DNA of 55,825 bases. Source: Lentisphaerae bacterium GWF2_49_21 (GTDB lineage: Bacteria > Verrucomicrobiota > Lentisphaeria > Victivallales > GWF2-50-93). Under the pieces are notes generated by a model that worked only from the letters and a program-made list of their open reading frames with translations, was not told the DNA's origin and did no database searches. A program made the position numbers and the translations under genes. Below, piece after piece: positions 4,104 through 19,488 of the stretch. Location: positions 1-55,825 of the forward strand of contig MHBH01000009.1 of the NCBI GenBank assembly GCA_001804805.1, written 5' to 3'. The stretch's first letter is position 1. Each line of letters starts with the position of its first letter.

Positions 4104-4495
4104 GTTGATTCCTTTTCCTGAGGATAAAAGCGTCCAATGAATTATTATTTCAAATATTTATGAAGCTAATTGCAGTTTTATTTATGTCAAGTCTTGTTAA
4201 ATATGATCTGCTTATAGTGGATGCACGTGAAAAGCAGCCGGGATTCGAGCAAGTCTCTGTTTTCCACATTATTATTCAGGCAAGGATAATTTTCCAATCA
4301 GGGGCGGCTTGGACAATCGATTAAAAACTGATAGTAAATAAAACCCGCTAATTCTTTCATTGGAGAATTATTTTCCGTTGAGAAAGTGATATATTTAGAT
4401 GATATACAAGGAATTCCGGAAATAAAGGAAAACATACAATGAATTGCATGCTGTGGAAGATGGGAATTATATTCAAAGCCGCTGGAGGAGCAAGA
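4104..4495. other. Divergent intergenic region
   Basis: 392 bp between two divergent units, AT-rich, without a convincing gene. A small stem, AATTCT/AGAATT, occurs near 4350-4369. A weak promoter-like pair toward the plus-strand PQQ gene is TTGAGA (4378-4383) and TATACA (4403-4408), but the 19-bp spacer is long. I recognise no riboswitch. Confidence 0.4.
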
Positions 4496-5740
4496 ATGAA
4501 AAGAAACGTGATGGGGCTGGTGTTGACAGTTCTGGCTCTGGCGGTTTGCTCTGCAATGGGCGAAGATGCTGTGAAGGTTGCTGACTGGCCAGGTTTCCGT
4601 GGAGCTGGTGCTCTGGCGGTTGCTGCAGATGCGAATACTGCCGTCGCATGGGATGTAAAAAGCGGAAAGGGCATACTCTGGAAGGCGGATCTTGCGCTTC
4701 CCGGTTCTGGCTCGGTGATTGTCTCAGGAACAAATGTGATCGCCTCAGGAGCCACCGGAACTGAGGGAGGAATCTTCTGCTTCGACATCAAGACCGGAAA
4801 ACCTCTCTGGAAGGGAAGCATCCCGCTGAAAGGCAAACCTGAGGTCTTCGAAGAGGAAACGACTACATTTGCGCCGGCCACGCCTGTGACCGACGGCAAG
4901 CGCGTGTTCGCCGTCTTCGCAACCGGCGCCATCTCCGCATTCAACATGGATGGCACGGCTGCCTGGACCGCGGATCTGGGAGTCCCGGAAATTACCTACG
5001 GATACGTTTCTTCCCCGGTGATCTACAAGAATACTTTGATTGTGCAGCACGACCAGAGCGACGAGAAGGCGGCCCTTGTCGCTTTCGATACGCAGACCGG
5101 AAAGGAAGCCTGGCGCATGAAGCGTTCCATGGGCGCTTCCTGGTGTTCTCCAATCGTGATAGAAACTTCCAAAGGTCCTCAGATCATCCTCGTGTCATGC
5201 GGCGGAGTGTCCTCCTATGATCCGAAGGATGGACGCGAGATCTGGATCGTGAAGAGAGAGAGCTCCGACATCGTATCTTCCCCCGCCTTTGTAAATGGAC
5301 TGGTCATTGCGACGCTGGGCACTAAAGGAACGTTGGCAATCCGTCCTGATGGTGCAGGCGATGTTACAAAGACGCATGTTGCTTGGAAAAACGACGATGC
5401 CGGCGCCGAGGTCGCTTCACCGGTCGTCAGCGGCGACTGCGTGTTTGTGGTTTCAACTTCAGCACTCTGCCTCAACTTGGCCGACGGCAAGAAAATTGGG
5501 GAAAAGGAACTTGAAGGACAGTTCTATTCCTCGCCCGTCGTTGCAGGAGGGAAGCTTTATCTTATCAACCGTGAAGGAGAGGTGACGATCCTAAAGGCCG
5601 ACAAGACACTGGAAGCCGTTGGCAAGGCCTCCTTCGGTGAACATTTAGATGCCACGCCAGCAGTATCCGGTGGTTTCCTGTTCGTGAGAACCCTGAAGAA
5701 GCTGTTGTGCATTGGTCCGGCATCGCCGTCCAAACCGTGA
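4496..5740 (+). CDS. Secreted PQQ-like beta-propeller protein
   Basis: 414 residues from the ATG at 4496. An upstream in-frame ATG at 4439 exists, but GGAGGAG (4483-4489) sits just before 4496, and that start opens a clean signal peptide (MKRNVMGLVLTVLALAVCS, then Ala-Met-Gly). The mature protein begins with a WPGFRG variant of the WPQWRG motif, followed by blades such as TGKPLWKG, DGTAAWTA, TGKEAWR, DGREIWI and DGKKIGE. It is expected in the periplasm. It is the first gene of a unit with the PEP-mutase-family enzyme, which starts 36 bp after its stop. The function is unknown; a ligand-binding or scaffolding propeller is as likely as a redox enzyme. Confidence 0.85.
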   Translation: MKRNVMGLVLTVLALAVCSAMGEDAVKVADWPGFRGAGALAVAADANTAVAWDVKSGKGILWKADLALPGSGSVIVSGTNVIASGATGTEGGIFCFDIKTGKPLWKGSIPLKGKPEVFEEETTTFAPATPVTDGKRVFAVFATGAISAFNMDGTAAWTADLGVPEITYGYVSSPVIYKNTLIVQHDQSDEKAALVAFDTQTGKEAWRMKRSMGASWCSPIVIETSKGPQIILVSCGGVSSYDPKDGREIWIVKRESSDIVSSPAFVNGLVIATLGTKGTLAIRPDGAGDVTKTHVAWKNDDAGAEVASPVVSGDCVFVVSTSALCLNLADGKKIGEKELEGQFYSSPVVAGGKLYLINREGEVTILKADKTLEAVGKASFGEHLDATPAVSGGFLFVRTLKKLLCIGPASPSKP

Positions 5741-5776
5741 AGTTTTAATATTCAGTAGCCTATGGAGGCAGTAAAA

Positions 5777-6628
5777 ATGAGCAAGGCGAAAATTCTTAAA
5801 GACATGATTTCTTCAGGCAGGACATTGGTAATGCCCGACGCTTATGATCCGCTTTCGGCAATGATCATCGAGCAGATGGGTTTTTCCGCAGTGCAATGTT
5901 CCGGCTACAGCATTGCGATTGCAGAGGGGCTGGCAGAGCCCGATCTGGATTTTGAAAGGAACTTGGCCGTTACAGCAGAGATAGTCAAAGCTGTAAGCGT
6001 CCCAGTCATGGCCGATGGAGAAGACGGGTTCGATGATATTGTCCTGACGATAAAGGCCTACATGAAAGCTGGAGTAGCTGGAATTAACATCGAGGATCAG
6101 GTGATTGCCGCATCTTCCGGTTCCGCCATCAAGAAGGTGATTGATAGAGAGGCGGCTGTAGCAAAAATCAGGGAAGCCAGAAAAACCGCGGTGTCGGAAG
6201 GAACTCCGGATTTGCTGATCAATGCAAGGACTGATGCGTTGCTTGCCGCCGAATCGAGATCGGCGGGACTGAAGGAATCCATCGTGCGCTGCAATATGTT
6301 TTTAGCAGCTGGAGCCGATCTGGCATTTGTCACCAATGTCGCTTCCATTGAAGAAGTGAAAACACTGGTCAAGGATGTGTCCGGACCTGTCAGCATTGCA
6401 GCCGGCCTGCCATATAACATTAATAATTTTTCCATAAAGGAACTGCAGGATTGCGGCGTAGCCAGGGTGAGTCTTCCCAGCATTGCAATACAGACGTCAA
6501 TCGCAGCCCTCGCAAGGACATTGAAGATGATCAAGGAGACCGGGGAATTTACCGAACTTGGCAACAATGGACTCTTATGTCGCAAGGAAGATCTTGCCAC
6601 GTTGGCAAATAAGAAATCCCAGCACTAA
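5777..6628 (+). CDS. PEP mutase / isocitrate lyase family C-C or C-P lyase
   Basis: 283 residues. The ATG at 5777 is chosen over 5762 because TGGAGG (5763-5768) is placed correctly only for it. The protein is a TIM barrel of the PEP phosphomutase/isocitrate lyase superfamily: LVMPDAYDPLSA at the N-terminus, CSGYSIA, metal-binding acidic segment MADGEDGF, and INIEDQ. The KKCGH catalytic loop of isocitrate lyase is absent, so it is not that enzyme. Oxaloacetate decarboxylase, 2-methylisocitrate lyase-like and phosphonate-related activities are possible; no other phosphonate genes are visible. Its 3' end overlaps the next gene's predicted start by 71 bp, suggesting translational coupling. It is cytoplasmic and sits between genes for exported propellers. 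Confidence 0.82.
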   Translation: MSKAKILKDMISSGRTLVMPDAYDPLSAMIIEQMGFSAVQCSGYSIAIAEGLAEPDLDFERNLAVTAEIVKAVSVPVMADGEDGFDDIVLTIKAYMKAGVAGINIEDQVIAASSGSAIKKVIDREAAVAKIREARKTAVSEGTPDLLINARTDALLAAESRSAGLKESIVRCNMFLAAGADLAFVTNVASIEEVKTLVKDVSGPVSIAAGLPYNINNFSIKELQDCGVARVSLPSIAIQTSIAALARTLKMIKETGEFTELGNNGLLCRKEDLATLANKKSQH

Positions 6629-8171
6629 AAAGGTTGAACCAGTGGTGGAAGAAAACAAATCAAATTTCAAAATAATCTTTCTCCCGGCGGCAGTTACAAT
6701 CGCACTGATCTGCATGGGGACTTACTGGCAGCTTGGAATCAAATATCCAATGCTTTCCCCCAGGCTTTCAGGAGAGGACGGAGCTCCGAAAAAGATAGAC
6801 GTCAAGAAAACAGAGCCACAGCCCTTTGCGAAACCTGACAACACCAAGGAAAATGTGAAGGAAGCTGTCACCGAAACAAATCAGGATATGCCTGCGCCTT
6901 TTAAGAAATCAGATGTCATCCGCACAATGCCCGATGGAGCGAAGATTGAACAGGGCAAAGGAAAGCCGGGACAGACGAAGGAATCATGGCCTTGTTTCCG
7001 TGGCGCCGGAAGAGATGCGACAAGTAGCAGTTCCGTGGAACTCTCCCGTGTCTGGTCTGCGGACGGACCTCCTGTCGTCTGGGAGCTGGAGCTTGGTCAG
7101 GGATATGCAGGAGCGGCAGTCCGTGATGGGCGGGTCTACATATTTGATTATGACGAGAAGGGTAAGCGCGACGCAATCAGATGCATTTCATCCGACAATG
7201 CCGAGGAGATTTGGAGATATTCATATCCGGTGGAAATCAAGCGCAACCATGGGATCAGCCGTTCTGTTGTCGCACTGGATGGGCCTCTCCTCATCGCGAT
7301 CAGTCCGAAATGCCAGGTGACATGCCTCAATGCGGAGACAGGCGCTTTCCAGTGGCGCATGGATCTTGTGGAGCAGTTCGGTACTACTGTGCCAAACTGG
7401 TATGCCGGACAATGCCCTCTGGTTGAGAATGGGAGATTGATCCTGGCTCCAGGAGGCCCAGATGTGCTGTTGATGGCAGTTGACTGCGCTTCCGGAAATA
7501 TTATTTGGAAGACCCCGAATCCGCATGGTTCAAAGATGAGCCATTCAAGTGTCGTGCCGATGACATACAAGGGCAAACAGACATATGTCTATTCCGGATC
7601 CAAGGGAGTTGTCGGGGTATCGGCCACCGATGGCAGCATCATCTGGGAGACGGACCAGTTCAAATGGCATACAATAGCGCCTTCGCCGATTTCCGTCTCC
7701 GAGGACCGTGTGCTTTTCACAGCGGGCTATGGCAGCGACTCAAAGCTCGCGAAACTTGTGGAATCCGAAGGCAAGGTCAAGGTGGAAATAATAAAGACCA
7801 TGAAGCCGAAGGAATTCGGCGTCGAACAGCATTCCCCCATCCTGTACAAGGGCAATATCTATGCGGTGCTTCCAAAGCCGCGACAGGAACTTGTATGCAT
7901 GGATACCGATCTCAAGGAGATTTGGGCGAGTGGCTCACAGAACAAGTTCGGTATCGGTCCCTGGATGATCGCCGGCGGAATGATCTTCGTGATGGACGAC
8001 GAGGGAACGCTGACCGCAGTTGAAGCGACAACCAAGGGCTTCAACCAGATTGCCAGGGCAAAGGTCCTCCCCGGTCCTGATTCATGGGGGCCGCTGGTCC
8101 TTGTGGACGGCAAGCTGTTTGTCAGGGATCTCAATATGATGAAATGTCTGGACGTCTCAAAAAAGAAGTGA
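6558..8171 (+). CDS. Membrane-anchored PQQ-like beta-propeller protein
   Basis: 537 residues from the ATG at 6558. That start overlaps the previous gene by 71 bp; in-frame GTG codons at 6642 and 6645, just after the previous stop, are credible alternatives that would remove 28-29 residues. Residues 38-60 form one membrane segment (FLPAAVTIALICMGTYW), followed by a Lys/Pro/Glu-rich linker to about 145. The propeller domain then opens with WPCFRGAG and carries blades such as AEEIWRYS, TGAFQWRM, SGNIIWKT and DGSIIWET. The GQCPLVENG segment resembles one in the PQQ-like protein at 25104. It is probably an inner-membrane protein with a periplasmic propeller. Confidence 0.83.
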   Translation: MATMDSYVARKILPRWQIRNPSTKKVEPVVEENKSNFKIIFLPAAVTIALICMGTYWQLGIKYPMLSPRLSGEDGAPKKIDVKKTEPQPFAKPDNTKENVKEAVTETNQDMPAPFKKSDVIRTMPDGAKIEQGKGKPGQTKESWPCFRGAGRDATSSSSVELSRVWSADGPPVVWELELGQGYAGAAVRDGRVYIFDYDEKGKRDAIRCISSDNAEEIWRYSYPVEIKRNHGISRSVVALDGPLLIAISPKCQVTCLNAETGAFQWRMDLVEQFGTTVPNWYAGQCPLVENGRLILAPGGPDVLLMAVDCASGNIIWKTPNPHGSKMSHSSVVPMTYKGKQTYVYSGSKGVVGVSATDGSIIWETDQFKWHTIAPSPISVSEDRVLFTAGYGSDSKLAKLVESEGKVKVEIIKTMKPKEFGVEQHSPILYKGNIYAVLPKPRQELVCMDTDLKEIWASGSQNKFGIGPWMIAGGMIFVMDDEGTLTAVEATTKGFNQIARAKVLPGPDSWGPLVLVDGKLFVRDLNMMKCLDVSKKK

Positions 8172-8180
8172 GGAATTCCA

Positions 8181-9224
8181 ATGAATCAGGGAAAAGACAC
8201 ATCTGACAAATCCGGGGAACCTGAAATCCCGCAGGTACAGCCTTCTCCGGAAAATGCCCCTGTATCTGGTTTCAGCCTGGTCTTGACCTTGCTTGCGCTC
8301 TTCCTGCTCGGAATCGTATTTTATTTCCTGATGAGGGGGGAGCCGAACGAAACTTCTATAGATAAAACATACAATCTTGACGATCTCCAGAAAACAGCTC
8401 CGAATACCATCCTGTTCAATGAACTCAAGCCGATCCCTTCAGGATTCAAGGAGCCGACATGCATTGCGACAGGATCTGACAACAGGATATACGCCGGTGG
8501 CGACAGGCAGATCCGTATCTTCGACAGTGATGGCAAAAAGACCGGAGAGATTGAACTGCAGAACCAGCCGACCTGCATTGCCGTATCTGGAAACAATGAT
8601 ATCTTTGTCGGTTTTCCATTGCAGGTTTCCGTTTTCAATCCGGCAGGAAAGGAAACGGTGTCATGGAAGTTTGAGACCGGCAGCGCCATTACAGGAATTG
8701 CCGTGTCCGGAAAAAATGTATTCATTGCCGATGCCGGGAAAAAGATGGTGCACGTAAAGGATTTGGACAGCCCGGAAAAGGAGGAGTTCAGGATAGGTGT
8801 TGCAAACAAGGAAACCGGAGATGACGGGATAGTCATCTACTCGGCATATATGGATGTCGCGACTGACGGCAATGATCTCCTGATGGTCGTCGATCCCGGC
8901 AGGCACCGCCTCAAGCTGTATTCATATTCCGGGGGGCTGGTATCCACATGGAAGAGCAATCCCGACATCGACATGAAAGGATTCTCGGGATGCTGCAATC
9001 CTTCCCATATCGCCATATGTCCGCCGGGAAAAGTCGTCACCAGCGAGAAATCAATTCCAAGGATAAAATTATATTCAGCAACCGGGGATTTCGTCGGTGT
9101 CGTCGCCCCTCCGGAATCATTTAAGCCGGGACAGATGCCGTGCGATATCTCTGTTGATAAAAAAGGCATAGTATACGCGATCGATCCGGCAACAGGCAAT
9201 ATTCGAATCTTCAAAGAAAAATAG
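8181..9224 (+). CDS. Membrane-anchored NHL-type beta-propeller protein
   Basis: 347 residues. A Pro/Glu-rich N-terminal stretch is followed by a membrane segment at about 31-50 (FSLVLTLLALFLLGIVFYFL), then an NHL/SMP-30-like propeller: repeated GSDNRIYAGGDRQIRIFDSDG, SGNNDIFVG and GIVYAIDPATGNIRIF units. Each blade has the pattern 'hydrophobic-Ala-D..G-I-hydrophobic' typical of NHL repeats. It starts 9 bp after the PQQ-like gene and shares that protein's cytoplasmic-tail/anchor/periplasmic-propeller layout, so the two probably act together. No catalytic residues can be pointed to. It is the last gene before a 260-bp gap with a large palindromic element. Confidence 0.8.
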   Translation: MNQGKDTSDKSGEPEIPQVQPSPENAPVSGFSLVLTLLALFLLGIVFYFLMRGEPNETSIDKTYNLDDLQKTAPNTILFNELKPIPSGFKEPTCIATGSDNRIYAGGDRQIRIFDSDGKKTGEIELQNQPTCIAVSGNNDIFVGFPLQVSVFNPAGKETVSWKFETGSAITGIAVSGKNVFIADAGKKMVHVKDLDSPEKEEFRIGVANKETGDDGIVIYSAYMDVATDGNDLLMVVDPGRHRLKLYSYSGGLVSTWKSNPDIDMKGFSGCCNPSHIAICPPGKVVTSEKSIPRIKLYSATGDFVGVVAPPESFKPGQMPCDISVDKKGIVYAIDPATGNIRIFKEK

Positions 9225-9314
9225 AGGGTGCAAAAATTTGTTTGATGATGATAAAATATCCAAAGTTCCAGGTGTTTTTGAAATTCATCCTTTGCGAATT
9301 GCAAAATTCGCACA

Positions 9315-9429
9315 TGGAGTGCGGCAATTCATTGCCGCCTTTAACGACGGAATTTATTCCGTCCAGGAGCTCAAGAACTCCGCGAAATAAATTTCGCGGA
9401 ACAAGGCGGTAACAAGTTCCCGCACTCCA
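9315..9429. repeat. Multi-hairpin palindromic element
   Basis: An outer 10-bp perfect stem (TGGAGTGCGG at 9315-9324 with its complement at 9420-9429) encloses three perfect hairpins: GCGGCAAT/ATTGCCGC (9321-9338), GACGGAAT/ATTCCGTC (9346-9363) and CCGCGAAAT/ATTTCGCGG (9380-9399). The first hairpin and the outer stem share bases, so alternative folds compete. The element lies between the propeller genes and the iron-sulfur operon. It looks like a structured intergenic repeat and could attenuate read-through. Confidence 0.7.
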
Positions 9430-9484
9430 AGGTCAGGCCGACGAGCCCGCCTAAAAGTAAAATACGAGGAATAGGAGTTTCAAA

Positions 9485-9700
9485 ATGAAAGACGGATTTT
9501 CGCGGCGTGAGTTTTTAAGGCTCCTTGCCAGGGGAGGACTGCTTGCATTCCTGGGCTATTGCATTATCAGGTCCGTGCGCAAACCTGATCCGGGCAACGT
9601 AAATGCCCAGTGCCCGTATCCGGAAAAAAGGGATTGCTCCGGCTGCATGCTTGCAGGAAAATGCCAGAGCGCCTCCAAGGACACCGGAAATAATTCATAG
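9485..9700 (+). CDS. Small Tat-type membrane-anchored Cys-rich protein
   Basis: 71 residues. The N-terminus carries SRREFLR, a close match to the twin-arginine consensus, followed by a short hydrophobic stretch (GGLLAFLGYCII) that may stay as an anchor. The exported tail has four cysteines in CPYPEKRDCSGCMLAGKCQ, spaced in a way that could bind a metal or cluster. A ribosome site (ATAGGAG) lies 8 bp upstream. It is followed 9 bp later by a Tat-type ferredoxin gene and is the first gene of the eleven-gene run. A Tat signal on so small a protein suggests cofactor insertion in the cytoplasm or piggy-back export with the ferredoxin. I do not recognise a named family. Confidence 0.72.
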   Translation: MKDGFSRREFLRLLARGGLLAFLGYCIIRSVRKPDPGNVNAQCPYPEKRDCSGCMLAGKCQSASKDTGNNS

Positions 9701-9709
9701 GACACGAAT

Positions 9710-10306
9710 ATGGATAATCAAATTACTGAAAATGCTGACACGCCCATCACGAGGCGTGAGGCCCTGCGCAAGGCCGTTGCCGGAATTATCTTCCTGGCAA
9801 TCGGAGCTGCGGGCTTCACGGTTTTCGGAAGAACAAGGAAAAAACGTACCGTCTGGCAGATCGATCACACGAAATGCATCCAGTGCGGACGGTGCGCCAC
9901 CCAGTGCGTCGTCACGCCTTCCGCCGTGAAATGCTTCCATGCATTCAATGTCTGCGGCTACTGCGATCTCTGTTTCGGATACTTCAGGCCGGGCACGATG
10001 GAGTTCGACACTACTGCGGAAAAAGAGTTGTGCCCCACCCATGCCCTGAAGAGGAAATTCATCGAGGAGCCATATTACGAATACACCGTGGATAAGGACA
10101 AATGCATAGGCTGCTCGAAGTGCGTGAAGGGATGCCAGACATTCGGCAACGGCAGCTTCTATCTCCAGGTGGATCATGAGCACTGCGTAAACTGCAACGA
10201 GTGCTCCATCGCCAAGGCATGTCCTTCAAACGCCTTCGTAAGACTGCCATCGGACAATCCCTATATGCTGAAGGGCCAAACCAAGGAAGTACCCAGGAGG
10301 ACCTGA
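9710..10306 (+). CDS. Tat-type periplasmic polyferredoxin
   Basis: 198 residues. TRREALRK at about 14-21 plus a hydrophobic segment (AVAGIIFLAIGAAGFTVFG) form a Tat signal or anchor. Cysteine motifs follow: CIQCGRCATQC near residue 60, CGYCDLC, CIGCSKCVKGC and CVNCNECSIAKACP. This is enough for about three to four 4Fe-4S clusters. The arrangement resembles NrfC/HybA/RnfB-like electron-transfer subunits. It is probably exposed to the periplasm and docks on the NapH/NosR-like membrane protein encoded immediately downstream, where the stop and next start are adjacent (TGA then ATG). The terminal electron acceptor is unknown; no molybdopterin or haem partner gene is in the window. Confidence 0.82.
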   Translation: MDNQITENADTPITRREALRKAVAGIIFLAIGAAGFTVFGRTRKKRTVWQIDHTKCIQCGRCATQCVVTPSAVKCFHAFNVCGYCDLCFGYFRPGTMEFDTTAEKELCPTHALKRKFIEEPYYEYTVDKDKCIGCSKCVKGCQTFGNGSFYLQVDHEHCVNCNECSIAKACPSNAFVRLPSDNPYMLKGQTKEVPRRT

Positions 10307-11605
10307 ATGAGGAATATTTCAAAAATACTTTTCCTTTCAGCGGTGATCATGCTGGGATTTTCCTCATTCGTGACGGCTGTGGACCGTTTTCCGCGTCCGG
10401 ATTTCACGGAGACGAAGCACCAGCATCCCGTTGTCCAGCATGTCCAGCCGCGCCCCGCCGTTTTGGAATATGTCGATACTGCGGTACTGCTGGCCTGCCT
10501 GATACTGGCCGTGCTGGCCCTGAGGTCGAGGTCCCGCAGAAATATGTCGCTCCTGGCTCTTTTCTCGGTGATCTATTTTGGATTCTACAAGCAAGGCTGC
10601 GTCTGTTCCGTCGGAAGCCTGCAGAATATGACACAGGCGATTTTCCAGAGCGATTTCTTCATTCCACTGGTTGTCGTGCTGTTCTTCGTGCTCCCTCTCA
10701 TCTTCGCCCTGTTCTTCGGCAGAGTCTTCTGCGCAGCAGTCTGCCCTCTCGGTTCACTGCAGGAAACATTGCTCATCAAGCCGGTCAAGGTACCTGTATG
10801 GCTTGAGAAGTTATTGAGATTTATACCTTACTTATATCTGTCTTTTGCAATACTCCTTGCTGCTACTGGAACCGCATACATCATCTGCCAGTTCGATCCG
10901 TTCGTCTCGCTGTACCGGATGAACGGCAGTTTCAACATGCTGGTCCTGACAGGTTCGATCATCGGTATTTCATTGTTCGTCGGAAGGCCGTATTGCCGGT
11001 TCATCTGCCCTTACAGCGTGCTCCTGAACCTCTGCTCGAAATTCTCCAGCTGGCATACGGCGATAACGCCCGACAAATGCGTCAGGTGCGGTCTCTGCAA
11101 GGACGCCTGCCCATATGGCGCCATTCGCTTTCCGGAACCGGAAGCTTCAGATGTCGAAAACAAAAAACAGAAGCGCCTGCTGAAAATACTCCTTTTGATC
11201 TGGCCTTTCCTGATCATTGTCGGAGCCGGTGCAGGCCTGTTTTCCGCTGAAGCATTGAGCCACCTGAACAAGACTGTTGAAAGAGCGGAATCTCTCTCTT
11301 CCGGCCAAAAGACCCCTTGGCAGTTGGATCTTGTGACCGCGTTCAGGCAGACTGGGGCGGCTGACAAGGATCTTTATGCGCAAGCCACCAGGATCCTGCA
11401 CCAGTTTGAGATAGGCTCGACAGTGATTGGCGGCGGTCTGGGATTCCTTCTGGGGCTATATATTCTCCGCATGAATATCAGAAGGAGACAGGACGATTAC
11501 CTTCCCGACCGTGGGCTCTGTTTTTCATGTGGCAGATGCCATGCATATTGCCCGAGGGAACAGCTACGCCTGAAGAAACTGAAGGAGGAAAATAATGCCG
11601 GATAA
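10307..11605 (+). CDS. NapH/NosR-like membrane iron-sulfur protein
   Basis: 432 residues with about eight hydrophobic segments: N-terminal signal/TM1, then near 58-78, 85-100, 120-140, 165-190, 205-222, 290-312 and 368-386. Between them lie CVCSVGSLQN, FCAAVCPLGSLQE and YCRFICPYSVLL, the paired CxxxCP motifs typical of the NapH/NosR/CcoG 4Fe-4S membrane family. A CVRCGLCKDACP ferredoxin motif lies near residue 265 and CFSCGRCHAYCP at the C-terminus. Such proteins carry electrons between a quinol or cytoplasmic donor and a periplasmic ferredoxin. It starts directly after the ferredoxin stop and overlaps the next gene by 11 bp. No FMN-binding domain is visible. Confidence 0.85.
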   Translation: MRNISKILFLSAVIMLGFSSFVTAVDRFPRPDFTETKHQHPVVQHVQPRPAVLEYVDTAVLLACLILAVLALRSRSRRNMSLLALFSVIYFGFYKQGCVCSVGSLQNMTQAIFQSDFFIPLVVVLFFVLPLIFALFFGRVFCAAVCPLGSLQETLLIKPVKVPVWLEKLLRFIPYLYLSFAILLAATGTAYIICQFDPFVSLYRMNGSFNMLVLTGSIIGISLFVGRPYCRFICPYSVLLNLCSKFSSWHTAITPDKCVRCGLCKDACPYGAIRFPEPEASDVENKKQKRLLKILLLIWPFLIIVGAGAGLFSAEALSHLNKTVERAESLSSGQKTPWQLDLVTAFRQTGAADKDLYAQATRILHQFEIGSTVIGGGLGFLLGLYILRMNIRRRQDDYLPDRGLCFSCGRCHAYCPREQLRLKKLKEENNAG

Positions 11606-11957
11606 GGTGACATCTGCCTCTTACAGGATCGCCCTGGCCGCCGGACTCTTCTCGCTGGCCGTCCTATTCCTGCTCCTGTTGAATTTCCAGGAGATGAGTT
11701 GGAACGATCCCCTGTCATCTGCGAATGCCGCAAAAATCAACGGGCTGACGGCGAAGCACCGCCTTGAACCCGACAATGAATCCATCAAGAAGGAAATACA
11801 GGTTCTCGACCAGCAGACCAGGCAGTACTATTTCAACAGTGTGCGGAAGGCCCGTACAGGATCCTATCTCCTTGTCGCTGGACTCGTCATATTTATCATC
11901 TCACTGAAAATACACCTTGGAAATTCCTCAGCGCGTTCCAGGAAATCAGACAAGTAA
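11595..11957 (+). CDS. Small two-TM membrane protein
   Basis: 120 residues with two membrane segments, at about 11-30 (IALAAGLFSLAVLFLLLLNF) and 90-107 (GSYLLVAGLVIFIISLKI). A charged, probably coiled-coil stretch lies between them in the periplasm (residues 45-85, rich in Lys/Glu/Gln). Both ends face the cytoplasm by the positive-inside rule. The ATG overlaps the end of the NapH-like gene by 11 bp, so translation is likely coupled and the two proteins may form one membrane complex. I recognise no family. No cysteines or haem motifs are present, so a structural subunit role is the most that can be suggested. Confidence 0.65.
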   Translation: MPDKVTSASYRIALAAGLFSLAVLFLLLLNFQEMSWNDPLSSANAAKINGLTAKHRLEPDNESIKKEIQVLDQQTRQYYFNSVRKARTGSYLLVAGLVIFIISLKIHLGNSSARSRKSDK

Positions 11958-11966
11958 AGGGCTTCC

Positions 11967-12728
11967 ATGAAAATCATCTACTGCGATTGTGCATACAGCG
12001 ACATTGTCGATGAAAAGAAGAAAAGAGAGATCCGCTCCGCCATGCTATCATCCGGAAAGGACGTCCTCCTGGTTCCAGACCTGTGCAGAATTGCGGCCAA
12101 GGACAAAGCCCTGCTTAAGAAGGTTTCATCATCTGGTGAACTGGCTGTGGTCGCATGCTTTCCACGGGCGGTAAAGGCATTGTTCGCCTATGCCGGGATT
12201 GACAAGAAGGTGAAACTGCATGTTTTCAACATGAGGACTTCCAGCTCTGCCGAAATACTCAGTAAACTTAAAGTCCATGGCTCAAGAAGTCAGAATGAAA
12301 CTGTGAAAGAATGCAAACCAGATAAAAAATCCTGGATACCGTGGTTTCCTGCGATCGAATATGGACGCTGTGTCAACTGCAAGCAATGCCTGAGCTTCTG
12401 TCTTTTCGGTGTCTATAAGCTTTCCAAGGACGGAAAAGTCATTGTCGCAAAGCCTGAAAATTGCAAGACCAACTGCCCGGCCTGCGCGAAGGTCTGCCCG
12501 AAATCCGCAATCATATTCCCGAAATACACCGAAGCTCCGGTCAATGGCGGTGAAGTTGACGAAAACGCACCTGCAGGGAAGAACATGAGGATCGATTATG
12601 AAAAACTTCTGGCGGACGACACATATGCGTTCCTGCACCAGCGCAGGCTGAATGCGATGAAAGCGGCACAGAATGGAACCGGCGCACAACCGGCCGGAAA
12701 AACAAGGCTCCTAAAAAAAGCAAAATGA
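11967..12728 (+). CDS. Cytoplasmic two-cluster 4Fe-4S protein
   Basis: 253 residues without signal or membrane segment. The N-terminal 100 residues form a Rossmann-like region with ELAVVACFPRAVKALFAYAG, which faintly recalls the 'CSPR' segment of heterodisulfide reductase A-type proteins. The middle holds CVNCKQCLSFC and the segment CKTNCPACAKVCP (about 161-178), enough for two 4Fe-4S clusters. A Lys-rich tail follows. Its likely job is feeding electrons to the radical SAM enzyme encoded next (ATGA overlap) or to the NapH-like membrane protein. It could also be an independent oxidoreductase subunit; the N-terminal domain is not clearly assignable. Confidence 0.75.
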   Translation: MKIIYCDCAYSDIVDEKKKREIRSAMLSSGKDVLLVPDLCRIAAKDKALLKKVSSSGELAVVACFPRAVKALFAYAGIDKKVKLHVFNMRTSSSAEILSKLKVHGSRSQNETVKECKPDKKSWIPWFPAIEYGRCVNCKQCLSFCLFGVYKLSKDGKVIVAKPENCKTNCPACAKVCPKSAIIFPKYTEAPVNGGEVDENAPAGKNMRIDYEKLLADDTYAFLHQRRLNAMKAAQNGTGAQPAGKTRLLKKAK

Positions 12729-13915
12729 TATTCCAACTCACAAAACGGATGCTGATGGAAACCGACAAGAGGCTTCTGTTCAAGTTCGCCTACAACTTCG
12801 GCTGGAAGGGCATCGGGGCCGTGCGTGCCTTCGACAGGCGCGTCAGGAAAGGCGAGCAGTTCCCCGCCTTCCTGTTCCTGTCCATCACCAACAATTGCAA
12901 TCTCAAATGCCAGGGATGCTGGGTCACTCCTTCCGTTCCCGCCCTTGAACTTGCTACCGCAGACATTGAAAATGTGATCGACACCTGCAAACGGCACGGC
13001 TCATACTTCTTCGGAATCATGGGCGGCGAACCGTTGCTCTACAAAGGACTCTTCGATTTGATCGGCAAACATCCCGACTGCTATTTCCTGATATTCACCA
13101 ACGGTACGCTCCTCACCGACGAGGTCGCCCGCGAAATGCGCAGGCTGGGAAATGTGACTCCGCTTGTCAGCGTAGAGGGCACGGCCGACGTCAGCGATGT
13201 CAGGCGCGGAGGCAGCGATGTCTATTCGCACGCCATGCACGCCCTGGAAAACTGCAGCAGGAACAGGCTGATCACCGGAGTCGCCACGAGCGTCTGCAAA
13301 AGCAATTTCAAGGATCTGGCGTCAGAGAAATTCGTCAATGAACTCATCGCAAAGAAGGTCCATTACCTCTGGTATTACATTTATCGGCCGGTGGGGAGGA
13401 TTCCGCATCCTGAACTGACACTCGACCGCAATGAGATATTGGAGCTGCGGAAATTCATTGTCAATACCAGGACAACGGCGCCTATCGCCATTGTCGATTC
13501 GTACTGGGACCATCTTGGCAGGGCCCTATGTCCTGCAGCCACCGGGATCGGCTACCATGTCAATCCTGCCGGATATCTTGAATTCTGTCCTCCGATACAA
13601 TATGCTAAGGAAAATATCAGGGATGGAAACCTCTCCGAGCTTGTCAAGAAGTCGGAGTTCCTGGCGGGATTCCGGAAAATGGCAAGCAGTTCTTCGCGCG
13701 GTTGTATACTACTGGAAAATCCCGTGCTGATGGCTAAATTCATAGTTGATCAGAAGGCGATAAATACGAGCGGGCGATGCGCAGGCATCGAGGAGCTGGA
13801 GGCGATGAAGTGCTGTGCAAGCCACCATCAGCCTGGCGAGGAGATACCTGAAAAACATTGGGCATACAGGATGGCGAAAAAATACTGGTTCTTCGGTTTT
13901 GGAGCATATGGATGA
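12725..13915 (+). CDS. Radical SAM protein with SPASM-like C-terminus
   Basis: 396 residues. The radical SAM cluster motif is CNLKCQGC (CxxxCxxC) at about residues 58-65, inside LFLSITNNCNLKCQGCW, followed by the GGEPLLY motif near 101. A later Cys-rich region (RALCPAATG, LEFCPPI, SRGCILLE, GRCAGIEE, MKCCASH) resembles a SPASM/twitch extension holding auxiliary clusters. No B12-binding domain is present. The gene overlaps both neighbours by the ATGA type, so it is translated with the ferredoxin-like and DUF116-polyprenyl synthase genes. By context it may modify an isoprenoid or a small peptide. HpnH-type hopanoid chemistry was considered, but the motif set is not specific enough to claim it. 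Confidence 0.85.
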   Translation: MIFQLTKRMLMETDKRLLFKFAYNFGWKGIGAVRAFDRRVRKGEQFPAFLFLSITNNCNLKCQGCWVTPSVPALELATADIENVIDTCKRHGSYFFGIMGGEPLLYKGLFDLIGKHPDCYFLIFTNGTLLTDEVAREMRRLGNVTPLVSVEGTADVSDVRRGGSDVYSHAMHALENCSRNRLITGVATSVCKSNFKDLASEKFVNELIAKKVHYLWYYIYRPVGRIPHPELTLDRNEILELRKFIVNTRTTAPIAIVDSYWDHLGRALCPAATGIGYHVNPAGYLEFCPPIQYAKENIRDGNLSELVKKSEFLAGFRKMASSSSRGCILLENPVLMAKFIVDQKAINTSGRCAGIEELEAMKCCASHHQPGEEIPEKHWAYRMAKKYWFFGFGAYG

Positions 13916-15543
13916 TGAAAAAAAGAAATTCAAAATCAAGCGTTGAAGCCGTCAATGAAGTTCCGCAATCGGGGACTGAACGGAAATTATTCTTCAGGCG
14001 CGTCAATGAATACGTCGGAACGCATGTCCTTGTGCCGCCTGTCACGGTAGATGAAATTAAAAGGCATGCAGGGGTATTGCGCGAGGACTGCCATATCGAA
14101 AGGCGGTATTCGGATTTCATTTCCGTGCTGCTGGGGAACACCCTCTGGAGGCAGACGGTCAGCACTGTTCCGTTCAACAGGCGGATCTTCATGATCCCTC
14201 ATTGCCTGCGCGATAAAAAGACATGTCCCGCCGAGATGGATGAGTTCGGGCTTCTCTGCCGTGAATGCGGCAAATGTCCGATTGGCACCTTGAAGAAGGA
14301 GGCGGAATCCCTTGGTTATCTTGTCCTGATTGCTGAAGGGACCACTCTGGTCACGAGCCTGATCGAGCAGGGGAAGATAGATGCCGTGATCGGGATTGGA
14401 TGCCTTTCAGCGCTTGAGAAGACATTCCCGCATGTCACTTCCAATGCCGTTCCCGGCCTGGCGATACCTCTTCTGCGCAATGGCTGCATAAATACAAAGG
14501 TCGATGTCGAGTGGGCAATGGACATGCTCCGCCTGAAATCCAAGAACAGAAATGTCAGCCATGTTGATTATCATGCCCTCCAGAAGGAAGTTTCCTCCTG
14601 GTTCTCCATTGGACATCTGCAAGGTTTTTTAAAGCCGGGAGGAAGCACGGTCGAAAAGATAGCTGTTGATTATCTCGCGAAGGCTGGAAAGAGATGGAGG
14701 CCATTTATCTTAGCCGCTTCCTACAAGGCCCTTTCTCCATCCTCGGATTCAATCCCGGATGCAGTAAGAAAACTCGCCATATCAATAGAATGCTTCCATA
14801 AGGCTTCACTTCTCCACGATGATATTGAAGATGACGATGAGTTCAGGGACGGCGAGAGGACTTTGCACACGGAATATGGCGTGCCTGTCGCCCTTAACAT
14901 TGGGGATTTCCTGCTTGGCGAAGGATATCGCCTGATCGCCGAATGCAATTTGCCGCTGGCGCAGAAGGAACTCCTGTTGAAAGTGGTTTCGCAGGGGCAC
15001 AGGAACCTTTGCATAGGGCAGGGGAAGGAGCTTTCGTGGAGGCTGTCACCGGGCCTGCCCCCGGTGCGTGAGGTAATTGATATCTCATGCCTGAAGACTG
15101 CACCAGCTTTTGAAGTTGCTTTTCTGCTTGGGGCGATAACAGCAGGGGCCGATGGGAAGACCTGCAGTTCCCTGAAGGATTTCAGCAGGCATTTGGGCAT
15201 TGCCTACCAGATCAGCGATGATATGAAGGATGCCTTGAGAAGGCCCGGGAAGCATCCTGAGCTGTCGATCAATCTTGCTGTTGCCAATGAGCTGGCGCGC
15301 GGAGCCGGTAAAAAACTGATAGCCGGTGGATGGAGGAACGGTTTCAATAAGAGCAGGGAGGCGGCCTTAAGAAAAACTCTCGCTTCTCCGAAGGTCGGGG
15401 AGAAGGTCGGCAAAATATTGGATCATCATAGGAAGATGGCCATTACCTCCGCCAACGGAGTTGATAGCATCGCCTTGAAGACTTTCTTATACAGGATCAT
15501 CGGGAGAATTGTCAAGGCGGATGAAAACAAGCGATCAAATTAG
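13912..15543 (+). CDS. DUF116 - trans-polyprenyl diphosphate synthase fusion
   Basis: 543 residues from the ATG at 13912, which overlaps the previous stop (ATGA); a longer frame from 13858 is less likely. Residues about 90-205 match DUF116: IPHCLRDKKTCP and LCRECGKCPIG give five Cys (98, 105, 116, 119, 122), suggesting a metal or iron-sulfur centre. Residues about 240-530 are an all-alpha polyprenyl synthase with GKRWRP, the first Asp-rich motif DDIED (303-307), GDFLLG, and the second motif DDMKD (436-440). Both Mg-diphosphate motifs are intact, so chain elongation of isoprenyl diphosphates is expected. Fusion of the two domains in one chain is uncommon to my knowledge. Chain length cannot be told safely. 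Confidence 0.85.
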   Translation: MMKKRNSKSSVEAVNEVPQSGTERKLFFRRVNEYVGTHVLVPPVTVDEIKRHAGVLREDCHIERRYSDFISVLLGNTLWRQTVSTVPFNRRIFMIPHCLRDKKTCPAEMDEFGLLCRECGKCPIGTLKKEAESLGYLVLIAEGTTLVTSLIEQGKIDAVIGIGCLSALEKTFPHVTSNAVPGLAIPLLRNGCINTKVDVEWAMDMLRLKSKNRNVSHVDYHALQKEVSSWFSIGHLQGFLKPGGSTVEKIAVDYLAKAGKRWRPFILAASYKALSPSSDSIPDAVRKLAISIECFHKASLLHDDIEDDDEFRDGERTLHTEYGVPVALNIGDFLLGEGYRLIAECNLPLAQKELLLKVVSQGHRNLCIGQGKELSWRLSPGLPPVREVIDISCLKTAPAFEVAFLLGAITAGADGKTCSSLKDFSRHLGIAYQISDDMKDALRRPGKHPELSINLAVANELARGAGKKLIAGGWRNGFNKSREAALRKTLASPKVGEKVGKILDHHRKMAITSANGVDSIALKTFLYRIIGRIVKADENKRSN

Positions 15544-16489
15544 CATGGATGTGTTCACCATCGCCTCATCTGCTAAAAAGCACTTGGATGATGACGCCAT
15601 CAGCAAAACTGCCGCTTTTATAATGTCAAGGATGAATGAGGATGGCGGATTCCGGGGCAGGTCGTCTTCAAGCGATCTCTATTATACTTTTTTCGCCCTA
15701 GCGACCCTTGCGAGCCTTGGAGCTTCAAAACATATTTCTCCAGTAAATTCATATTTAAAAAAGATTGACACCCATCGGTTTGGTTTTATCGACCTGTACT
15801 GCCTGGCATGCACCAAGCCTCTGCTGACTTACCTCAAGCTGCCTGATAAACTCAAAGCTCTTGCCCTGTTGACGGCCCGGAAGAACAGTATGTTTACAGG
15901 CAGGGCAGCGAAGGAACTCGTCGGACGGCTTGAGGATTACAGGTCAATGGACGGCGGTTATAATCAAAATACCAAAAACTCAAAGCATGGAACTGTCTAT
16001 GCATCATTCCTGGCGTGTCAGGCATATGACAACCTAGGTCTGGAAATACCGGACAAGAAAGGAATTCTTAACAGTCTGGAAGCTTTGAAGGCTTCCGACA
16101 ACGGTTATGCAAACCAGCCGGGAATGGCCCATGGGACAACCACCGCCACTGCGGCATCAGGAATCATGATGATGCGCCTTGGCGGAAAATTTCCACAGAC
16201 TGTTGAAAAATGGCTGGCCGGGCAGCTTCTTCCCTGCGGAGGATTCAGGGCAAGCCCGCAGACACCGATTGCAGACATGCTGTCGACTTCAACCGCCGTA
16301 CTCGCCCTGAGGCACGTTGGACATAAGTTCGAATCCAGACAAAGCATCATTGATTTTGTTGAAAGCCACTGGGATGATTCCGGCGGGTTCTTCGGATCGA
16401 TGCTTGATCCTGTTTGCGACTGTGAATATACATTTTATGCACTGTTGACCCTTGGATGTCTGTTGGAAAATAGTTTTTCAGGGAACTGA
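15521..16489 (+). CDS. Prenyltransferase/squalene-oxidase-repeat protein lacking zinc ligands
   Basis: 322 residues from the ATG at 15521; a TTG at 15509 is an alternative. It overlaps the polyprenyl synthase gene by 23 bp. Five repeats of the alpha/alpha-toroid type are visible (NEDGGFRG, MDGGYNQN, SDNGYANQ, PCGGFRAS, DDSGGFFG), each followed by a helix such as YYTFFALATL or EYTFYALLTL. The fold is that of protein prenyltransferase beta subunits and class II cyclases. The Asp-x-Cys and late His that bind zinc in protein farnesyltransferases are not conserved (DML and CDCEYT occur at those places), and there is no DxDD motif. It may be a non-catalytic partner or a divergent terpenoid-binding protein for the cyclase encoded next. 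Confidence 0.75.
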   Translation: MKTSDQISMDVFTIASSAKKHLDDDAISKTAAFIMSRMNEDGGFRGRSSSSDLYYTFFALATLASLGASKHISPVNSYLKKIDTHRFGFIDLYCLACTKPLLTYLKLPDKLKALALLTARKNSMFTGRAAKELVGRLEDYRSMDGGYNQNTKNSKHGTVYASFLACQAYDNLGLEIPDKKGILNSLEALKASDNGYANQPGMAHGTTTATAASGIMMMRLGGKFPQTVEKWLAGQLLPCGGFRASPQTPIADMLSTSTAVLALRHVGHKFESRQSIIDFVESHWDDSGGFFGSMLDPVCDCEYTFYALLTLGCLLENSFSGN

Positions 16490-16498
16490 AAAACTATT
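16469..16498 (+). promoter_or_regulatory. 12-bp perfect hairpin over the stop codon, upstream of the cyclase start
   Basis: AATAGTTTTTCA at 16469-16480 pairs perfectly with TGAAAAACTATT at 16487-16498 around a 6-nt loop (GGGAAC). The stop codon of the preceding gene lies in the right arm, and the cyclase ribosome site (AAAGGA) begins a few bases later. There is no T-tract. It could pause transcription, stabilise mRNA or tune translation of the cyclase when ribosomes terminate through it. Confidence 0.5.
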
Positions 16499-16516
16499 AC
16501 ACAAAGGAAAAATTTC

Positions 16517-18313
16517 ATGTCGGGAAATAATAACATTGACAAAATGCTAAAGAGTAGCTTGTCCCATCTCGAGCAGAAGCTGATAGGGGAAATGCAGTCC
16601 GGATTCTGCTGGCGCGGGAAACTTTCCTCCAGCGCTCTCTCGACCGCCGTTGCGATGTTCGCACTTTCAAAAGTTGATTCCAGGAAATACTCAGGAAAAA
16701 TTAATAAGGCCGCAAGCTGGCTGCTTGAAAATGTAAATCAGGATGGCGGCTGGGGAGATACCCCGGAAAGTCCGAGCAATATAAGCACCACTCTTTTGGC
16801 ATGGTCCGCTCTTTCATTGGTGGAAAAAGAGGAGCCTTATGCAAAGCTCATTGAAAGGGTGGAACAATATATCAAAAAGACAACAGGCTCGCTGGAGCCT
16901 GCGGATATTTCCAGGACTGTACTCGGACATTACGGGAAGGATCGCACATTTTCAGTTCCGATATTGACCATGTGCACACTAGCTGGCAGGCTCGGAGATG
17001 ATGGCAGTGAATGGAATTATGTCATCCAGCTCCCATTTGAAATGTCGGTACTGCCAAGGAGTTTTTTCCGGTTGATCGGCCTGCCTGTCGTCAGTTATGC
17101 GCTGCCCGCGTTGATTGCCATGGGAATGCTCAGGCATAGGAAGGCAAAGGGCAATCCCCTCATGAGGATAATAAGGAATATGGTGGCTGGCAGATCTCTT
17201 GAAGTATTGAAAAGTACTCTTCCTTCCTCAGGAGGTTTTCTGGAAGCCGTTCCGCTGACAGGATTTGTTACAATGTCCCTCGTTGCCGCAGGATGCAAAG
17301 ATGAAAGCATAATAGGCGCATGTTCCGGATTTCTGGAAAAATCGTTCCGTGAAGACGGGAGCTGCCCAATAGATACGGACCTGGCGACATGGCTGACTTC
17401 GCTGTCGGTAAAAGCCCTCGGAATAGAATCATTGGGTGCGGAAAAGTCGGAGGCTATAACAAAATGGCTGATGGCTCAGCAATACAGAACTGTTCATCCT
17501 TACACAGGAGCGGCTCCGGGCGGCTGGGCCTGGACAGATCTTCCGGGAGGAGTACCAGATGCCGACGATACCTCTGGCGCATTGATTGCCTTGAAGCTCC
17601 TGAATCCTTCATGCGACCGGCAATCCATTTCCGCAGGAATAGGATGGATTCTTGATCTGCAGAACAGTGACGGAGGGATTCCCACCTTCTGCAAAGGCTG
17701 GGGTAAACTGCCATTTGACAGGAGCTGTCCTGAAATCACAGCGCATGCCCTGGAAGCGTTTTCCAGATGGAGAAAAGAAGTGGATGATTCCCTTGGGAGA
17801 AGGATGGATGCCTCCATGGTCCGGGGCCTCGAATACCTGCGAAGTTCGCAGAAAGCCGATGGCTCATGGAAGCCATTGTGGTTTGGAAACCAGTTCGCGA
17901 CCAACCGCGAAAATCCCACATATGGAACAAGCCGGGTGCTGATGGGGCTGAATGTCCTGCAGGATCCTGAATATAAAACGAAAACTGAATTCATGATCAA
18001 AAATGCCGTTGCCTGGCTCTTGAATGCCCAGAACCAGGATCATGGCTGGGGCGGAGACAAAGGACTGCAAAGTTCGATTGAGGAAACTGCCCTTGCCGTC
18101 AACGCGCTGGGCGGACTGCAGGAAAGAACACCGGAAATAGATGAGGCTGTCATGAAAGGGGCTGCAAGACTGCTTGAATTCACGGACAATTCCGACATGC
18201 CTCCGGCATCCCCGATTGGACTTTATTTTTCCATGCTATGGTATTCGGAACGGCTTTATCCTTTGATTTTCACAGTCTCAGCCCTTAAAGTAATAAAGGG
18301 AACCTCTAAATGA
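16517..18313 (+). CDS. Class II terpene cyclase of the squalene-hopene cyclase family
   Basis: 598 residues, near the family's usual 620-650. It carries the protonating acid motif DxDDT at 348-352 (DADDT) in the context GGWAWTDLPGGVPDADDT, as in squalene-hopene cyclases. QW-type repeats include QDGGWGD (75-81), NSDGGIP, KADGSW and QNQDHGWGGD (505-513), and the NPTYGTSRVL segment matches the family's YGTW region. It has no signal peptide; such enzymes are monotopic membrane proteins. Cyclisation of a linear polyprenoid is expected. No squalene synthase genes (hpnCDE or sqs) are in the window, so the substrate may be a polyprenyl diphosphate or prenylated compound made by the fusion synthase upstream rather than squalene. 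The stop overlaps the next start (ATGA). Confidence 0.85.
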   Translation: MSGNNNIDKMLKSSLSHLEQKLIGEMQSGFCWRGKLSSSALSTAVAMFALSKVDSRKYSGKINKAASWLLENVNQDGGWGDTPESPSNISTTLLAWSALSLVEKEEPYAKLIERVEQYIKKTTGSLEPADISRTVLGHYGKDRTFSVPILTMCTLAGRLGDDGSEWNYVIQLPFEMSVLPRSFFRLIGLPVVSYALPALIAMGMLRHRKAKGNPLMRIIRNMVAGRSLEVLKSTLPSSGGFLEAVPLTGFVTMSLVAAGCKDESIIGACSGFLEKSFREDGSCPIDTDLATWLTSLSVKALGIESLGAEKSEAITKWLMAQQYRTVHPYTGAAPGGWAWTDLPGGVPDADDTSGALIALKLLNPSCDRQSISAGIGWILDLQNSDGGIPTFCKGWGKLPFDRSCPEITAHALEAFSRWRKEVDDSLGRRMDASMVRGLEYLRSSQKADGSWKPLWFGNQFATNRENPTYGTSRVLMGLNVLQDPEYKTKTEFMIKNAVAWLLNAQNQDHGWGGDKGLQSSIEETALAVNALGGLQERTPEIDEAVMKGAARLLEFTDNSDMPPASPIGLYFSMLWYSERLYPLIFTVSALKVIKGTSK

Positions 18314-19488
18314 TTCATAAACGGAAAATCTTCCTGATGGTGACGATGCTCGCGGTGATGATTGCTGCGATATTCGCATTTTCCCAGACCCCCAATCCCT
18401 TTCCGGCTGCAACCTCGAAAAAGACTCCGTCAAACATGGACTGGCCGGTGTTCCGTGGCAACCAAAATCTTACAGCCGCCGTTGATGGTACTCTCGCAGA
18501 CGACCTTGAACTCGCCTGGACATTCACGGCCGGCGGGGCAATAGGTTCAGCTCCGATAATCAGCAAGGGAATAATATTCGCAACTTCCGCCGATGGAAAA
18601 ATCTATGCACTGTCCGCCGAAAAGGGAAACAAGCTCTGGGAATTTGATTCTGGTGCCCCGTTCGAAGCCTCAGCTCTATTTTTCAAAAACACAGTATATG
18701 CCGGAAACCAGAAGGGAATCCTATATGCCGTTGACGCCGATACCGGTAAGGAAAAATGGAAGTTCACCGCCGAGGACAAGATCGCCGGCTCTGCGAACTT
18801 CGCAGAAGTTTCCGAAAAACTGTCACTGGTCTTCATAGGCGGCTACGACAACATCATGCGAGCGCTTGACGCCGATACCGGGAAGGAAGTATGGCAGTAT
18901 GCCACCCAGAACTATATCAACGGCTCTCCTGCCGTCAGCAAGGACATGCTGGCGTTCGGAGGATGCGATGCAAACCTGAGGATCCTGAAAATCGCCGACG
19001 GCAAGGAGATTGCGAACGTCCCGATGGGTTCATATATTCCAAACTCCCCATGTGTTTACGAGGACTTCATTTATCTCGGACATTACGGGGGGAACCTGTT
19101 CTGCGTCTCCATCCAGCAGAACAAGATCATCTGGCAGTTCCCGAAGGATTCGTCAGCCGGTTCTTTTATGGGCTCTCCAGCCGTCAGCAAGGACAAGGTC
19201 GTGATAGGAAGCCAGGACAGCAAGATATATGCAGTAAAACGCGCATCAGGCGAACTTGCCTGGACTTTCAATACGAAGGGTGAAGTGAAAAGCTCCCCGG
19301 TCATCATCGGCAGCAAGGTCGTTGCCGGCTCTTCAGACGGCCGCCTTTACATTTTGAATATTGAGGATGGCTCCAAGCTCTGGTCATACGATATGGGCGC
19401 GGAGGTCACTGGTTTCGCCGTTACAGGCGCAATGATCATAGCTGCTTCAGATACAAGAGTGTATGCTTTCAGGAAACGGGGCAACTGA
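18310..19488 (+). CDS. Secreted PQQ-like beta-propeller protein
   Basis: 392 residues with an N-terminal signal sequence or anchor (residues 8-25, IFLMVTMLAVMIAAIFAFS). The mature part starts DWPVFRGNQN, a variant of the WPQWRG motif, and has very regular seven- to eight-bladed PQQ_2 repeats: DGKIYALSAEKGNKLWEF, KGILYAVDADTGKEKWKF, ALDADTGKEVWQY, SKIYAVKRASGELAWTF and GRLYILNIEDGSKLWSY. It is the most BamB-like of the five. Translation is coupled to the cyclase by the ATGA overlap, and the glycosyltransferase gene starts 2 bp after its stop. Being exported while its operon neighbours are cytoplasmic enzymes suggests that the product is handled in the periplasm. Confidence 0.85.
   Translation: MIHKRKIFLMVTMLAVMIAAIFAFSQTPNPFPAATSKKTPSNMDWPVFRGNQNLTAAVDGTLADDLELAWTFTAGGAIGSAPIISKGIIFATSADGKIYALSAEKGNKLWEFDSGAPFEASALFFKNTVYAGNQKGILYAVDADTGKEKWKFTAEDKIAGSANFAEVSEKLSLVFIGGYDNIMRALDADTGKEVWQYATQNYINGSPAVSKDMLAFGGCDANLRILKIADGKEIANVPMGSYIPNSPCVYEDFIYLGHYGGNLFCVSIQQNKIIWQFPKDSSAGSFMGSPAVSKDKVVIGSQDSKIYAVKRASGELAWTFNTKGEVKSSPVIIGSKVVAGSSDGRLYILNIEDGSKLWSYDMGAEVTGFAVTGAMIIAASDTRVYAFRKRGN

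Follow-up and report, generated by a model that had tools for sequence, protein, structure and literature searches.

In the Rnf complex, NAD(H) and ferredoxin are linked to a transmembrane route of iron-sulfur and flavin centres, and the relatives of the membrane protein NapH are best known as quinol dehydrogenases. Here, a stretch of 55,825 nucleotides from Lentisphaerae bacterium GWF2_49_21 (assembly GCA_001804805.1, contig MHBH01000009.1, positions 1 to 55,825 of the forward strand; referred to below as the window) was analysed for the iron-sulfur gene set at positions 9485-13915 and for the genes around it, which an earlier note had described as a cytoplasm-to-periplasm electron route beside a radical SAM enzyme. 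Two further systems were used for comparison: StnABC, whose subunit StnC is given in the excerpted text of its source as a NuoG plus GltD protein of 1172 amino acids (PMC10482914), and the FLEET locus for extracellular electron transfer, in which genes for a dedicated NADH dehydrogenase and for dedicated lipid-quinone synthesis stand together, according to the excerpt of its source (PMC9888254).

The stretch 9485-13915 joins two operons, module 1 (4439-11957) and module 2 (11967-18313), which meet at about 11960; the gene set of the earlier note extends upstream (4439-5740, 6558-8171, 8181-9224) and downstream (13900-18313). Judged from sequence and gene neighbourhood, it is on balance probable that module 1 would be a membrane electron-transfer unit leading from NAD(P)H or ferredoxin to the periplasm, and module 2 a pathway to a cyclised isoprenoid. 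The genes of the two modules, with the basis of each assignment in brackets, are as follows.

4439..5740, + strand: BamB-like PQQ-repeat propeller with its own signal-like N-terminus (Pfam PQQ_2)
6558..8171, + strand: PQQ6558 propeller with one N-terminal transmembrane segment, first gene of the electron-transfer operon (Pfam PQQ_2)
8181..9224, + strand: membrane-anchored NHL-repeat protein, transmembrane segment at residues 33-51, invariant GCCNP (Pfam NHL)
9485..9700, + strand: small Tat-like Cys-rich protein, 71 amino acids (sequence)
9710..10306, + strand: TatFd, Tat-like polyferredoxin, 198 amino acids, 17 conserved Cys, about four [4Fe-4S] sites (Pfam Fer4-type)
10307..11605, + strand: NapH/NosR-like membrane iron-sulfur protein, 432 amino acids (Pfam Fer4-type)
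11595..11957, + strand: protein with two transmembrane segments, 120 amino acids, N-terminal anchor detached from the anchored propeller (homology)
11967..12728, + strand: cytoplasmic iron-sulfur protein, 253 amino acids, possible HdrA-N-like domain plus 2[4Fe-4S] ferredoxin, opening gene of the isoprenoid cassette (Pfam Fer4-type)
12725..13915, + strand: radical SAM enzyme, 396 amino acids, CxxxCxxC plus three invariant C-terminal Cys (Pfam Radical_SAM)
13900..15543, + strand: DUF116-polyprenyl synthetase fusion, DUF116PS (domain match and conservation)
15509..16489, + strand: alpha-alpha toroid protein SQC_s, prenyltransferase/cyclase fold (family match and conservation)
16517..18313, + strand: class II cyclase SQC_l, squalene-hopene-cyclase-like, conserved DADDT (family match and conservation)

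All six open reading frames of 9485-13915 were confirmed at their positions and are real, not chance; the alignments of relatives show invariant cysteine sites in TatFd and NapH. Five of the six are iron-sulfur or Cys-rich and are placed on both sides of the membrane and within it, and conserved frames, Pfam domains and invariant cysteines bear out the earlier description on this point. TatFd has the Tat-like start TRREALRK, and none of its cysteines varies in the 22 aligned rows except C63 (95%). The GCxC, the two CxxxC(P) motifs and the two four-Cys sites of NapH are invariant wherever a row has a letter (20-24 of 25 rows), and, by hydropathy and the positive-inside rule, the four-Cys sites and the CxxxCP motifs would all be cytoplasmic and the GCxC pair periplasmic. 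In the NHL protein, both cysteines of GCCNP are invariant in all 22 rows with a letter. The 9485-9700 protein has a Tat-like start (SRREFLR), a single hydrophobic segment and the pattern C-x8-C-x2-C-x5-C; its best Pfam match, FeoB_associated, is sub-threshold (E 0.056), and its orthologue was found at locus L032 only.

The conserved order of module 1 was taken from a comparison of 54 annotated TatFd loci, which belong to several phyla and lie mostly in draft assemblies, where the absence of a gene is weak evidence. The operon of the relatives runs propeller, NHL protein, TatFd, NapH, anchored propeller, NuoE/NuoF fusion (NuoEF) and NuoG/GltD-like protein. NapH follows TatFd directly in 54/54 loci, the NHL gene lies just upstream of TatFd in 51/54, and a PQQ6558-type propeller lies upstream in 43/54, the product of 6558-8171 being the best match in the window for 42 of the 43 propellers that precede the NHL gene. 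The downstream sequence exceeds 5.5 kb in 42 loci, and NuoEF was found in 31 of these; the 11 loci without it include the window and L032. The NuoEF of locus L193 contains, by Pfam, thioredoxin-like [2Fe-2S], Nuo51 FMN, NADH_4Fe-4S and C-terminal Fer4 domains, and its best matches among solved structures are 9bov_B, 8oh5_B (Stn), 9n5u_B and HydB. The NuoG/GltD-like protein, in which an N-terminal part of NuoG is joined to a GltD-like part within 514 amino acids, is best matched by 9bov_A and 8oh5_C. Since the best matches of both proteins are StnABC/HydB structures, the NapH-TatFd route in the relatives probably draws on NAD(P)H or ferredoxin as its cytoplasmic donor and not on the radical SAM enzyme. 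As a side observation, in paralogous operons (L183, L184, L185, L186, L189, L190) a NuoE-like protein with its own anchor of two transmembrane segments comes directly after NapH; the hhalign probability of 72 between this anchor and that of the window, where one side of the comparison had only five loosely trimmed sequences, is at most suggestive.

Electron flow in the relatives would be outward. Cytoplasmic NAD(P)H would be oxidised by NuoEF and the NuoG/GltD-like protein, or electrons exchanged with ferredoxin. NapH would take up the electrons at its two [4Fe-4S] sites on the cytoplasmic face and move them across the membrane through the conserved cysteines of GCxC and CxxxCP to the approximately four clusters of Tat-exported TatFd, which may serve the NHL and PQQ-type propeller proteins tethered to the membrane on the periplasmic side. 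The cytoplasm-to-periplasm route proposed earlier fits the protein anatomy and the operons of the relatives, and the suggestion that propeller proteins receive the electrons fits the operon content. No support was found for the radical SAM enzyme or for the 11967 ferredoxin as partners of that route, both belonging to a separate cassette that occurs without detected TatFd (threshold E 1e-10) in 31 of 50 genomes.

In the source genome, the anchored propeller appears to have been split, with its anchor at 11595-11957 and its propeller half at 4439-5740, because the former shares homology with the N-terminus of the propellers that come after NapH in the relatives and because 37 of 37 such anchored propellers have 4439-5740 as their best match among the propellers of the window. 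The two-segment protein, taken earlier for a partner, is this detached anchor. Fused NuoEF was not found in the source genome, where four NuoF-like matches were recorded, which neither span the NuoE part nor lie beside NapH. The NuoEF/NuoG genes are not adjacent in this lineage, and another donor must therefore feed NapH; because fused NuoEF is lacking, the 11967-12728 ferredoxin could possibly have become the replacement donor, a narrower form of the earlier idea. Elsewhere in the source genome, NuoE-like, NuoF-like and NuoG-N-containing frames stand in a row (G000:C40:13331-15085, L205), possibly a candidate HydABC-type hydrogenase.

Module 2 was delimited with the DUF116PS fusion as scan query, which gave 80 loci, annotated by iterative profiles. 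The recurrent cassette consists of ferredoxin, radical SAM enzyme, DUF116PS, SQC_s and SQC_l; among 81 sources including the window, with many loci broken by contig ends, a ferredoxin-type gene was counted in 69, a radical SAM gene in 64 and the cyclase in 53. The PDADDT of the cyclase, which contains the DxDD acid motif of class II terpene cyclases, is at least 90% conserved in a 59-row alignment. In a second form of the cassette, the ferredoxin is split in two and a GcvH-like protein, a CobW-type GTPase and often a cysteine desulfurase are present (GcvH matches 35 and CobW matches 39 among 101 sources), which points to possible sulfur or lipoyl-type chemistry within the isoprenoid pathway. 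Many Planctomycetota and Acidobacteriota carry this form (e.g. L036, L045, L046, L071, L104), and a cysteine desulfurase-like gene (u0, DndA/IscS-like) was seen in 20 cassette loci. The usual radical SAM enzyme is replaced by a B12-binding type in eight loci (L053, L033, L041, L043, L058, L062, L106, L111), the one at 8386-9951 of L053 being nearest to TIGR04013 (78 bits). In fold searches, the matches listed for DUF116PS cover the synthetase part only, and those of 11967-12728 are mostly ferredoxins; its residues 1-103 match the N-terminal region of HdrA with Z 5.2-5.6, the best being 8rvy_A (Z 5.6, root-mean-square deviation 3.4, 99 aligned), all below the reliable range. Module 2 is probably a cytoplasmic pathway to an unusual cyclised isoprenoid, in which the polyprenyl diphosphate synthase fused to the iron-sulfur protein DUF116, together with the class II cyclase and its partner, would yield the cyclised product, and the ferredoxin and radical SAM enzyme would perform a difficult modification of the isoprenoid.

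The association of the modules was determined in 194 genomes of the source phylum, with DUF116PS counted at E 2.1e-77 or better and 16 further genomes, matched in the synthetase part only, left out of that count. DUF116PS was found in 31 genomes and TatFd in 29: both in 27, TatFd only in 2, DUF116PS only in 4 and neither in 161 (Fisher p 1.5e-26 by genome and 3.6e-16 by genus, genomes being treated as independent). Of these 27 genomes, 11 have the modules at most 10 kb apart and 16 have them on different contigs. As for the TatFd-only genomes, G139 has a broken piece of the cyclase and G059 has no cyclase; the cyclase is present in all four DUF116PS-only genomes. Outside the phylum, 50 of 80 named DUF116PS-bearing genomes were picked by hand, and at a threshold of E 1e-10 TatFd was close in 13, distant in 6 and not detected in 31; close TatFd accompanied 7 of 11 cassettes with fused ferredoxin vs 3 of 34 GcvH/CobW cassettes (5 of the 50 were not typed). 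Among 246 Planctomycetota genomes, DUF116PS was found in 56, close TatFd in 26 and both in 14. Of the 12 TatFd genomes without DUF116PS, the cyclase is present in three and was not detected in the other nine. Assembly gaps explain these 12 in part only: G335 has ferredoxin, a B12-type radical SAM gene, cyclase and a cut DUF116PS at a contig end, and G300 and G253 have the cyclase; to the contrary, in G364 the operon lies on a 3.87-Mb contig and neither DUF116PS nor cyclase was found in the genome. A strict tie of TatFd to the cassette was rejected, the TatFd operon being kept alone in some Planctomycetota genomes. The modules share a contig in one Planctomycetota (L058/L200) and one Bacteroidota genome (L099/L193).

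The modules are separable, because the cassette occurs without detected TatFd in 31 of 50 genomes and the TatFd operon without detected DUF116PS or cyclase in 9 of 26 Planctomycetota genomes, and they are nevertheless associated, as separate machines that often travel together. The simplest link between them would be an exported redox-active or reducible lipid. A wider proposal, which we consider doubtful, is that of a widespread undescribed Rnf-like respiratory unit, in which a Stn-type module sitting on NapH would oxidise NAD(P)H or ferredoxin and electrons would arrive at the Tat-exported polyferredoxin and a propeller scaffold in the periplasm; in many genomes, a dedicated cyclised isoprenoid made by the cassette, glycosylated and exported by the LolD/MacB-like transporter, would be the redox lipid or terminal substrate of this wire.

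Several of the results weigh against the favoured reading of outward transfer from NAD(P)H or ferredoxin. The source genome is without a full NuoEF, so no Stn/HydBC-type donor was assigned to it, and in the relatives the NADPH site of the NuoG/GltD-like protein is uncertain because its GltD-like part matches well over about residues 97-294 only. As to the co-occurrence, phylogeny is ignored in the Fisher tests, the GcvH/CobW cassettes are mostly without TatFd (27 none, 4 weak and 3 strong among the 34), and the Planctomycetota link is weaker, with DUF116PS in 14 of 26 strong-TatFd genomes vs 42 of 220 others (p 2.5e-4) and neither DUF116PS nor cyclase detected in 9 of the 26. The best-known role of NapH relatives, together with one UbiA family member above the cut-off in the source genome, by which the idea of a genome without quinone prenyltransferase was rejected, also speaks for another explanation: NapH-TatFd could be a NapGH-like dehydrogenase passing electrons from (mena)quinol to a periplasmic acceptor, with NuoEF a mere genetic neighbour. 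The resemblance to NapH (46.7 bits) and NosR (48.1 bits) and the preserved order of ferredoxin sites and CxxxCP motifs agree with this, but the NapH score is far under the NapH cut-off of 213, the NuoEF/NuoG pair is kept adjacent in 31 of 42 loci, and no molybdopterin partner was found; we regard this explanation as rather unlikely, though deserving of attention. The earlier note had seen no molybdo- or haem-catalytic subunit within 9485-13915, which was confirmed, and had left room for a reductase set with a distant catalytic gene. This is excluded for nitrate reductase and was rejected for molybdoenzymes in general by the absence of PF00384, which had 0 matches in the source genome (95.19% complete) and matched 11 of 14 control genomes; for NosZ (TIGR04246), 0 matches were found in the source genome, with a weak control, as no control genome reaches the cut-off.

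Two further alternatives concern the direction and the unity of the route. Inward flow, from periplasmic PQQ-type propeller dehydrogenases through TatFd and NapH to reduction of NAD(P)+ or ferredoxin, accords with the propellers that flank TatFd and NapH in most loci. It is improbable, since CxxCH was not found in any of the 77 flanking propellers scanned (of 80), for the flanking propellers of the window BamB-type PQQ_2 is a better match than the model of PQQ dehydrogenases, and NAD+ reduction from such donors would be uphill. The idea of one wire, that of the earlier note, in which NapH-TatFd would connect the 11967 ferredoxin and the radical SAM enzyme to the periplasm and electron exchange would drive or drain the lipid chemistry across the membrane, draws on the genome-level co-occurrence in the source phylum and on the juxtaposition of the modules in the window and L032, precisely where the NuoEF genes are absent. 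The retention of either module without the other, as counted above, makes it slightly more improbable still.

Downstream of module 2 lie the genes of a block that adjoins either module, whole or in part, in relatives:

18310-19488, + strand: propeller
19491-20777, + strand: GT4 glycosyltransferase
20892-21605, + strand: LolD/MacB-like ABC ATPase
21721-25014, + strand: large permease

Between the two propeller genes of module 1, 5762-6628 presumably encodes a phosphoenolpyruvate mutase/isocitrate-lyase-like protein; it was matched in none of the other DUF116PS loci compared. An imperfect inverted repeat at 9315-9429, between the NHL gene and the small Tat gene, has 47-nt arms of 74% complementarity, encloses nested perfect hairpins and resembles a palindromic extragenic element; its CGGCAAT hairpin has no second exact copy within the window, and an Rfam scan of 4000-26500 gave no match. 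Two nearly identical tandem frames at 34221-35420 and 35682-36875 (399 and 397 amino acids) are taken by us to be uroporphyrinogen-decarboxylase-like.

No paper on either module was found by full-text search of the open-licence PubMed Central literature. If the favoured reading is true, a route from NAD(P)H or ferredoxin to the periplasm would be added in genomes of Planctomycetota, Lentisphaerota/Verrucomicrobiota, Acidobacteriota and some Bacteroidota, groups whose bioenergetics is poorly known, and the periplasmic NHL and PQQ propeller proteins of these operons would gain a testable redox role. Separately, the conserved DUF116-polyprenyl synthetase-cyclase cassette may produce a lipid or cofactor of a new class.

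Compared with squalene-hopene cyclases, the cyclase of the window shares the DADDT motif and the cyclase N and C domains, but it scores 91.2 bits with TIGR01507 against a cut-off of 431.1. As in the hopanoid pathway, which has HpnH, a radical SAM gene lies inside the cyclase cassette, but that of the window scores 38 bits against the HpnH cut-off of 225, and the cassette has the polyprenyl synthetase-DUF116 fusion and no squalene synthase was seen in it. Unlike FLEET, no Ndh2, PplA or DmkA was recognised here, and the likeness is one of analogy only. Unlike Rnf, no Rnf membrane subunit was recognised in the operon, which has a Tat-exported polyferredoxin instead. The StnABC/HydBC systems are approached by the NuoEF and NuoG/GltD-like proteins of the relatives, which are best matched by 8oh5 and 9bov subunits; they differ in the fusion of NuoE with NuoF, in the length of the StnC-like protein (514 amino acids vs the 1172 given in the excerpt of PMC10482914) and in their position beside NapH/TatFd. 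As for NosR/NosGH, the NapH of the window aligns with NosR over the membrane part (residues 414-645 of 680, 48.1 bits), but no N-terminal FMN-binding domain was found in 10307-11605 among Pfam matches up to E 0.1. Finally, NapGH (MauMN) likewise has a Tat polyferredoxin beside a membrane protein that carries two CxxxCP motifs together with two four-Cys sites of the ferredoxin type. Unlike there, the NapH of the window scores 46.7 bits with TIGR02163 (cut-off 213.05) and 40.3 with NF007013 (cut-off 234), its genome has no PF00384 match, and its partners are NHL and propeller proteins and, in the relatives, NuoEF and NuoG.

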